Positions 37,808 through 40,474 of a DNA stretch of 41,916 nucleotides are shown here, one piece after another. Under the pieces are notes generated by a model. It saw only the letters and a list, made by a program, of their open reading frames with translations, did not search any database and was not told the origin of the DNA. Each line of letters begins with the position of its first letter. Position 1 is the first letter of the stretch. The stretch is from Comamonadaceae bacterium (GTDB lineage Bacteria; Pseudomonadota; Gammaproteobacteria; Burkholderiales; Burkholderiaceae_C), in assembly GCA_025356545.1 (NCBI GenBank), contig JANXSU010000154.1, positions 1 through 41,916 of the forward strand, given 5' to 3'. The position numbers and the translations under genes are program-made.

Positions 37808-38788
37808 ATGAAAATCGCCATCCCTGACGACTACCAAGACTGCGTTCGGCATCTCAAGTGTTTTTCAACACTGGCCGATCACGAAGTCACAATTTACAAC
37901 GACAACATCAAAGACATTTCAGAACTGGCCGCGCGTTTTTCCAATGCGCAAGCCATCGTCTTGACGCGTGAGCGCACGCGCATCACGGCGGAGTTGCTGG
38001 ATCGTTTGCCGCAATTGCGCGTCATCAGCCAAACCGGCAAGCTGGCCGGGCATGTGGATTTGGCGGCTTGTACGCAACGCGGCGTGGCGGTGCTGGAGGG
38101 CAGTGGCACGGGCGCGGCCACGGCCGAGCTGACCTGGGCACTGCTGCTGGCCAGCCGTCGCAACGTGGTGGCGGAGGTCAACCGCTTGCACAGCGGTTTG
38201 TGGCAGGGCTCAGTGGGGCAGCAGTTGCAAGGCCAACGTTTGGGCGTGTGGAGTTATGGCCGCATCGGCAAGCAAGTGGCTAACTATGGCAAAGCCTTTG
38301 GCATGAAGGTGTGGGCCTGGGGCCGTGCGGGCTCTATGGCGCAGGCTCAGGCCGACGGGGTGGAGGTAGCGCCCACGAAGCAAGCCTTCTTTGCGCAGAG
38401 TGACGTCATCAGCCTGCACGTGCGTTTGAATGCCGACACCGCAGACATGGTGAGCGCCGCCGATCTGGCGGGCATGAAGCCCAGCGCGCTGTTGGTCAAC
38501 ACCAGCCGCGCCGAGTTGGTCGCGCCGGGTGCTTTAGTGCAGGCCTTGCAACAAGGTCGCCCCGGCTTTGCCGCAGTAGATGTGTATGAAGACGAGCCGG
38601 TGCTCGGTGCGGCCCACCCGCTGCTGCAACTGCCCAACGCGCTGTGCACGCCGCACTTAGGGTTTGTGGAGCAGGACAACTACGAGCGCTACTTTGGTCT
38701 GGCGTTTGAGAACATCAACCACTTCTGTGCCGGGCGAGCCACGGGGCTGGTGAATCCGGACTATGCTCACAGAAGGCCCGCGCCTTAA
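37808..38788 (+). CDS. D-2-hydroxyacid dehydrogenase family protein
   Basis: MKIAIPDDYQDCV; GVWSYGRIGKQVANYGKAFGMKVWAWGR; ALLVNTSRAELVAPGALVQALQQGRPGFAAVDVYEDEPV. C-terminal 53 codons duplicated downstream. Confidence 0.93.
   Translation: MKIAIPDDYQDCVRHLKCFSTLADHEVTIYNDNIKDISELAARFSNAQAIVLTRERTRITAELLDRLPQLRVISQTGKLAGHVDLAACTQRGVAVLEGSGTGAATAELTWALLLASRRNVVAEVNRLHSGLWQGSVGQQLQGQRLGVWSYGRIGKQVANYGKAFGMKVWAWGRAGSMAQAQADGVEVAPTKQAFFAQSDVISLHVRLNADTADMVSAADLAGMKPSALLVNTSRAELVAPGALVQALQQGRPGFAAVDVYEDEPVLGAAHPLLQLPNALCTPHLGFVEQDNYERYFGLAFENINHFCAGRATGLVNPDYAHRRPAP
38628..38788 (+). repeat. Upstream copy of 161-bp direct repeat (dehydrogenase 3' end)
   Basis: 38628-38718 identical to 40191-40281 (91 bp by eye); 38719-38788 aligns without gaps to 40282-40351 at ~73% identity. 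Confidence 0.93.
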
Positions 38789-38842
38789 TGTTTCAAGCGA
38801 CCCTAAAAGTCGGTTGCGGCTTTAACAACATACACGGAAACA

Positions 38843-39535
38843 TTGACTCATATGATGAAATGGCCACCCATAGATGAGCTGTCATCAATGGCACCTCTCC
38901 CGGAAGGTTACCGCTACGACTGGCTTAAGCGCTCCGAGATTCCCGCGCTGATTGCATGCATCAAACGTTGGCATCCGGATATTGCCGTTGGCGGGGGAAG
39001 CTGCTATTTGCGAGAAGACTTTTACAACGACCATGTGCACCTTAAAGGCGAGGCCGAGAAACACATCATCGTTGGATTGTTCAAGCACGGCGATGATCTT
39101 GCGGGCATGTGGTCGCTGGAGCAAGATCCGGATGCACTCTCGCTCTACAGCCGACTGATCATTCTTTCACCAGAACATCGCAGCGCCAAGCTCGCATCCA
39201 AAGCATTACCGTTGGTAGAGTGGACGGGGCGGTCGATGGGAGCAGAATTCCTGTTTGGGTTGGCCACCCTGAAAATCCCGCACATGCAGCGTGCGCTTGA
39301 ATCTGGAGGGTGGCAGCTGATCGGTTTTACCTCTGGCTACGACCGAGAACAGGTGGCACCTGGTGTCGTGAAGCGTGTTTTTGAAGGCGCCTATGTGAAG
39401 GTGCTGGTACCAGAAGAGGATCTGATTCGTCCCGATCCGAGCAATCTGACGCCGCACGCTAGAGCCTTGTTTGACGTTCTGTTTCCCACCCCGCCAGCGT
39501 CCGCTTCGCCACCCGTCATGAGGAGTGGAAAATGA
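38843..39535 (+). CDS. GNAT-like acetyltransferase-fold protein, paralog 1
   Basis: LIILSPEHRSAKLASKALPLVEWTGRSMGAEFLFGLATLKIPHMQRALESGGWQLIGFTSGYDREQVAPGVVKRVFEGAYVKVLVPEEDLI. Start may be 38852 (MMKWPP). Confidence 0.7.
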   Translation: MTHMMKWPPIDELSSMAPLPEGYRYDWLKRSEIPALIACIKRWHPDIAVGGGSCYLREDFYNDHVHLKGEAEKHIIVGLFKHGDDLAGMWSLEQDPDALSLYSRLIILSPEHRSAKLASKALPLVEWTGRSMGAEFLFGLATLKIPHMQRALESGGWQLIGFTSGYDREQVAPGVVKRVFEGAYVKVLVPEEDLIRPDPSNLTPHARALFDVLFPTPPASASPPVMRSGK

Positions 39536-40188
39536 AATGGCCCACCACCAACGAACAGCGGGCACTGATACCTTTGCCTCAAGGATACCAATTCGAACGA
39601 CTTGAGCGCGCGCACATTGCTGACCTGATTGCGAATATCAAGCTGTGGTATCCAGAAATTTCGGTCGGTTCCAACAGTGGCTACCTGCGCGAAGACTACT
39701 ATCTCAATCGTGTTTCATTCGAAGGCTGTGCTGAACACGACATTTTGGTTATGCCGATGACGTTCGGGGGTGAACTTGTCGGTGTCTGGTCGTTCGAACG
39801 TGAAGTGGATTCGTTGGCCATCTACGGAAGAATTCTCATCCTTGCACCGGCACATCGCGGATCAAATTTATCGGGAATTATGCTGAAGGGCGCGGAAACC
39901 CTGGGACGATCGATGGGCGCGGCTTTCCTGTATGCCCTGGCAACGCTCAGAATCCCCCATGCCCAGCGCGCACTTGAATCGGCCGGCTATCGGTTACTGG
40001 GCTTCTTTCCCGGCTACGACCGCGAAGAAATCTCACCCGGAGTAGTGAAGCGCGTCTATCAGGCTGTGTATGCGAAATTACTGGTACCCGCCGAGGACAT
40101 GCTGTTCCCTGAACCTAAGAACATGACGCCAAAGGCGATGGCACTATTTGAATTGTTGTTTTCCGACTCACCGGAAGAGCGCCCATGA
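39532..40188 (+). CDS. GNAT-like acetyltransferase-fold protein, paralog 2
   Basis: Colinear with paralog 1 (LILAPAHRGSNLSGIMLKGAETLGRSMGAAFLYALATLRIPHAQRALESAGYRLLGFFPGYDREEISPGVVKRVYQAVYAKLLVPAEDML); ATGA overlap with gene 1. Confidence 0.7.
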   Translation: MKWPTTNEQRALIPLPQGYQFERLERAHIADLIANIKLWYPEISVGSNSGYLREDYYLNRVSFEGCAEHDILVMPMTFGGELVGVWSFEREVDSLAIYGRILILAPAHRGSNLSGIMLKGAETLGRSMGAAFLYALATLRIPHAQRALESAGYRLLGFFPGYDREEISPGVVKRVYQAVYAKLLVPAEDMLFPEPKNMTPKAMALFELLFSDSPEERP

Positions 40189-40190
40189 AA

Positions 40191-40351
40191 AACTGCCCAA
40201 CGCGCTGTGCACGCCGCACTTAGGGTTTGTGGAGCAGGACAACTACGAGCGCTACTTTGGTCTGGCGTTTGAGAACATCAATCACTTCGCCGCCGGGCGA
40301 ACCACGGCCCTTGTCAATCCGGACTTTGCGCTTAACAAGTCTGCGCCATAA
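40191..40351 (+). pseudogene. Orphan 3' fragment of the D-2-hydroxyacid dehydrogenase gene (downstream repeat copy)
   Basis: LPNALCTPHLGFVEQDNYERYFGLAFENINHFAAGRTTALVNPDFALNKSAP with stop; lacks catalytic/NAD-binding portions and has no in-frame start of its own kind. Confidence 0.9.
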
Positions 40352-40474
40352 AGCACCAAGCGCGTCCCGCATGCACACCCCACATACCTAATCTCACACA
40401 CCAGTAAGACGATTTTTATATTTGTCTTAAAATAAAGGGTGCATAAAAAATCTTTATCTCTTGTCCTCTCACGG

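Follow-up and report, generated by a model that had tools for sequence, protein, structure and literature searches.

Bacterial GNAT enzymes are mostly known as homomers or as single chains, and dimers are common among them. A limited literature search found no description of a bacterial GNAT built from two separately encoded paralogs. The closest described arrangements are PamZ and the mycothiol synthase MshD, single-chain tandem GNATs in which one domain is catalytically inactive; in PamZ the inactive domain contributes to the substrate pocket (PMC9054821, PMC4964394). The gene pair described here resembles these proteins in having two GNAT folds per functional unit, which for the pair is our proposal, but differs in that PamZ and MshD carry two domains in one chain, those of PamZ being <20% identical, whereas the pair consists of two full-length genes with products 51% identical. 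A sequence relation between the pair and PamZ or MshD was not detected. Like TacTA, AtaTR, and PacTA, the locus has a GNAT gene within a coupled two-gene unit; unlike them, it has no antitoxin, and both of its genes are GNAT-like.

The features discussed below were located in the window, which is the whole stretch of 41,916 nucleotides that was analyzed.

38628..38799, + strand: left copy of the 3' end of a D-2-hydroxyacid dehydrogenase gene, completing an intact gene that ends at 38788
38807..40190, + strand: inserted segment of ~1.38 kb with two genes only; the left edge is approximate, having been set where similarity to the empty sites ends
38855..39535, + strand: gene 1 (copy 1), encoding a 226-aa protein with a predicted GNAT fold and the P-loop RSAKLA at residues 109-114
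39532..40188, + strand: gene 2 (copy 2), with an ATG start, encoding a 218-aa paralog, 51% identical, with the diverged P-loop RGSNLS
39532..39535, + strand: 4-nt stop/start overlap ATGA; an N-TGA overlap of this kind is shared by all 12 pairs
40191..40362, + strand: right copy of the dehydrogenase tail, an orphan fragment of ~50 codons, continuous with native downstream DNA and a TonB-dependent receptor gene

The open reading frame list begins gene 1 at TTG 38843, which is not conserved among relatives; the start was set at ATG 38855 because the relatives begin there with a conserved MKWP-like motif. A Shine-Dalgarno-like GAGGAG can be read immediately 5' of the ATG of gene 2. Proteins 1 and 2 align over 214 residues with no gaps, at 51% identity and 72% similarity (E 3e-84). 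The preliminary description of this DNA had presented them as two colinear homologs of ~220-230 aa whose reading frames overlap by ATGA and which form the entire cargo of the element, and all of this agrees with our analysis, with no further gene between the two dehydrogenase-tail copies. The shared motif that it quoted needs one correction, as its YVK reads YAK in protein 2.

The assignment to the GNAT superfamily had rested on motif resemblance and was re-examined by structure prediction, run on protein 1. The AlphaFold2 model, built from a 15-sequence alignment, has a mean pLDDT of 85.8 and a pTM of 0.77, and its elements follow the GNAT order. A Foldseek search of the PDB with this model gave 476 matches at E<=0.001, and the top-ranking ones are GNATs with a probability of 1.00, among them PacT (PA3270), RimL, and SpeG; the TM score (target) is 0.57–0.76 for most of the top matches, yet the identity to PacT, RimL, and SpeG is only 10–17%. 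The partner of PacT is an Xre antitoxin, whereas the partner in the pair is a paralog. Protein 2 would be expected to adopt the same fold, given its gapless 51% identity to protein 1. The sequences of the pair are themselves borderline, each window protein scoring 14.6 bits against Pfam PF00583 (Acetyltransf_1), below the cut-off of 20.7. The window pair represents an uncurated branch. Two single-gene relatives exceed the curated cut-off (L053, 29.8 bits; L051, 21.5 bits), and 27 of 35 family members match the profile at E<=0.1. NCBIfam profiles gave no match for either protein, PHROGs gave weak generic acetyltransferase matches only, and the viral fold library returned generic GNATs, Mom among them at low TM. 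Profile matches to PDB entries included amine acetyltransferases, all of them weak matches: nourseothricin, AAC(3)-I, diaminobutyrate, and agmatine acetyltransferases. Membership of the GNAT superfamily is thus supported by the predicted fold of protein 1 and by the relatives above the Pfam cut-off; for protein 1, the refuting outcome named at the outset, a predicted structure that lacks the GNAT fold, did not occur.

Relatives of the family were found in 14 of 401 genomes of the bacterial family (~3.5%) and in 6 of 399 genomes sampled from the order (~1.5%), the window's own genome being counted in both, and carriers amount to about 2–3% of Burkholderiales genomes. Additional relatives occur in Polaromonas, in Rhodoferax, and in three Pseudomonas records. 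Among ~570 genomes sampled at the class level (320) and phylum level (248) there was no relative besides the window's own genome, and searches of plasmid, phage, and IMG/VR contigs gave none. The pair is present in 12 Burkholderiales genomes, at the window and at L009, L010, L014, L015, L047, L048, L050, L056, L057, L058, and L059; the remaining family loci are single genes. Since the two-gene unit recurs with its overlap in 11 other genomes, the arrangement is beyond chance. The possibility raised at the outset, that the family always occurs as unlinked single genes, is contradicted by these 12 linked pairs, although single-gene members do exist too. The pair is a real, conserved two-gene unit, uncharacterized, and new as a variant inside the GNAT superfamily. 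In-frame stops had been flagged in some second copies; they are the natural C-terminus, with 212 aa open and the frame ending just within the matched stretch.

A different arrangement is seen in two Pseudomonas species (L012 and L013, 8001–9209), where a single 402-aa chain joins the family domain to a canonical GNAT domain. The canonical domain scores 62 bits, and this C-terminal GNAT falls outside the family of the pair. A fold predicted for the fusion from one sequence had a pLDDT of 38.5 and was discarded. At L016 (7815–8420) and L017 (7967–8551 and 9408–10205), single-gene members adjoin a gene of the glyoxalase/dioxygenase superfamily, and at L017 a LigB-type ring-opening dioxygenase gene also lies beside the single-gene member. 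At the Rhodoferax locus L010 a third, canonical GNAT gene (2071–2673) lies on the same strand, 84 bases 3' of the pair.

The two copies appear to have a common history. Copy 1 precedes copy 2 with a 4-nt overlap in all 12 pairs, and in a tree of 36 proteins each copy makes up one side of a branch, with support of 93/86 and 97/98. The inner branching is largely alike in both copies, with the window grouping with Polaromonas and Rhodoferax and then with L047, L048 with L057, and L050 with L058 and L059. The distance matrices of copy 1 and copy 2 are correlated accordingly (Mantel r 0.87, p about 1e-4). Such copy-wise clades and mirrored distances are the pattern predicted if the gene was duplicated once and the two copies were inherited together from then on. 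Relative to the window, and only where dS could be estimated, dN/dS is 0.09–0.16 for copy 1 and 0.09–0.18 for copy 2, with synonymous sites often near saturation; by this measure both copies are evidently under purifying selection.

Comparison of the window with related genomes bears on how the pair reached its present position. In two genomes of the window's genus, G001 and G002, nothing intervenes between the dehydrogenase gene and the TonB receptor gene downstream of it, which represents the empty site. G002, another species of the genus, has a pair of its own, flanked by argG and an SCO1-like gene, at a junction that is empty in the window's genome. The window and G002 pairs are 71% and 63% identical, less than the 79–80% and 71–72% between the window and the Polaromonas and Rhodoferax pairs, despite 93% identity between the window and G002 dehydrogenases. 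The empty sites in sister genomes, together with the lower likeness of the window and G002 pairs than of pairs across genera, argue that the pair has been acquired repeatedly by horizontal transfer, at unrelated chromosomal loci. Taken with the two clades and the mirrored histories, these unrelated loci and empty sister sites point to one ancient duplication, after which the two genes have spread together. When the neighbors of the 12 loci were compared, with a distant flavoprotein match excluded from the count, the only genes that any of them shared were glc genes, which L009 and L014 have at differing distances, and a fixed third gene therefore seems unnecessary to the unit.

At the window, the left and right dehydrogenase tails are 87% identical, the first ~90 bases being identical and the sequences diverging after them, and the end of the left tail resembles the G002-type allele. 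This suggests a donor fragment of which one end was joined through homology and the other illegitimately. Long flanking repeats occur in the window only, with none at the other pairs, and there is no recombinase gene within the inserted segment; for these two reasons the label of a transposable cassette was dropped. Flanking repeats were likewise discarded as a sign of mobility valid for the pairs in general. A second, diverged dehydrogenase tail with a TonB receptor region is present in G001 (L067, contig C322, 1–200), on a contig that starts inside the tail, and this region could be a paralogous locus or the result of a strain mixture.

Constraint is distributed unequally between the two copies. 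The CoA-binding P-loop of copy 1 reads RSAKLA in 11 of 12 pairs and RDAKLA in one, whereas that of copy 2 drifts, with the leading Arg absent in 3 of 12 and position 6 occupied by Ser or Thr in 9 of 12; copy 2 is also the more divergent overall (0.42 versus 0.30). Neither copy matches the consensus Q/R-x-x-G-x-G/A, which within the family is canonical only in the single-gene members L052–L055. The position of the general-acid Tyr, located by alignment to nourseothricin acetyltransferase, is Leu in every copy 1, while copy 2 has Leu, Phe, or Val there. Trp-39, Tyr-57, Glu-89, Glu-149, Gly-157, and Glu-165 are kept by both copies, as is the acceptor-side signature, gene 2 retaining Trp-39, Tyr-57, Glu-89, Glu-149, and GYDRE on that side. 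AAC(2')-Ic is an example of an active GNAT with an atypical P-loop (PMC4964394), and neither copy is therefore called dead; a non-canonical P-loop is compatible with GNAT membership by fold.

These features can be accommodated in a model of a two-part enzyme. We consider the chances about even that the pair is a self-contained unit, spread horizontally, that encodes a two-subunit N-acyltransferase of the GNAT superfamily dependent on acyl-CoA. A more specific version, which we put forward tentatively and at slightly short of even chances, is a previously unnamed GNAT family in which a catalytic GNAT and a pseudo-GNAT paralog transferred along with it form an obligate heteromer, the two genes serving Burkholderiales as a mobile accessory enzyme. 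Translational coupling would supply both chains in near-equal amounts, and the two chains would assemble into the heteromer. Gene 1, with its frozen CoA loop, would bind acyl-CoA and carry out catalysis, and gene 2, with its eroded CoA loop and intact acceptor side, may shape the acceptor pocket or lend the enzyme stability, in the manner of the pseudo-GNAT domain of PamZ. The acceptor is likely to be a small amine (an antibiotic, a polyamine, or an amino-acid-like metabolite), a guess that derives from the superfamily and the weak profile matches and nothing else, and acylation of this amine could bring an occasional advantage in detoxification or metabolism. The heteromer is favored by the conservation of both genes together in 12 of 12 pairs and by the occurrence of the family domain and a second GNAT domain in one Pseudomonas chain. 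Against catalysis by either chain stand the Leu at the general-acid Tyr position in every copy 1 and the departure of both P-loops from the consensus, and the single-gene relatives show that family members can function with no paralog at their side, which counts against the heteromer. The heteromer proposed in the preliminary description is nonetheless strengthened by the invariant order and overlap, the coevolving copies, and the unequal CoA-loop constraint, although the assembly itself is something that we infer.

A serious rival to the heteromer, which we regard as somewhat unlikely, is that the genes encode two separate homodimeric GNATs, co-expressed and acting on related substrates or in consecutive steps after subfunctionalization of a tandem duplication. 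Homodimers are frequent among GNATs, the family has single-gene members, nearly all family-invariant residues are retained in both copies together with the signature of purifying selection, and coupling and coinheritance are also consistent with two homodimers. Under such an arrangement, however, the fixed order and 4-nt overlap in every pair would be harder to account for when up to half of the residues differ, the mirrored histories and unequal constraint on the CoA loop fit a relation of subunits or partners better, and no member of either subclade turned up alone.

The pair may also be a mobile determinant of resistance or detoxification, acting by N-acetylation of one particular antibiotic or amine; this reading is compatible with a heteromer, but we judge it improbable. 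Its patchy distribution in the family and order genomes and its transfer between genera, and probably between families, would be in keeping with such a role, and the best remote sequence match is nourseothricin acetyltransferase. The remote matches are weak (E 0.005), however, and due to motif A, which is generic to GNATs; Pfam and NCBIfam gave no match to a resistance-gene family, there are no plasmid records, and no biosynthetic cluster was noticed adjoining any pair.

The preliminary description had also entertained modification/immunity or toxin-like acetyltransfer, an idea that finds no support here. A toxin with its immunity protein, or a type II toxin-antitoxin system with a GNAT toxin, is brought to mind by the presence of the GNAT toxin PacT among the closest fold matches. 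At L047 (7996–8807), moreover, the pair is immediately preceded by a gene for a TacA1-like antitoxin and a GNAT gene, which probably make up a toxin-antitoxin module. Such a system is nevertheless very improbable for the pair, as known GNAT toxins have RHH or HTH-Xre antitoxins as partners (PMC9561280) and the two proteins of the pair are GNAT-like and homologous to each other, no antitoxin model in Pfam or NCBIfam matches either window protein, no RHH or Xre partner or other DNA-binding protein is common to the 12 pair loci, PADLOC defense models gave no match at E<=1, and there are no plasmid or phage copies.

For the heteromer of a catalytic GNAT and its pseudo-GNAT paralog, the conservation of the pair intact through repeated transfer would offer a clean natural test of a partnership between an enzyme and a pseudoenzyme, and its patchy spread suggests that the pair has a selectable activity.
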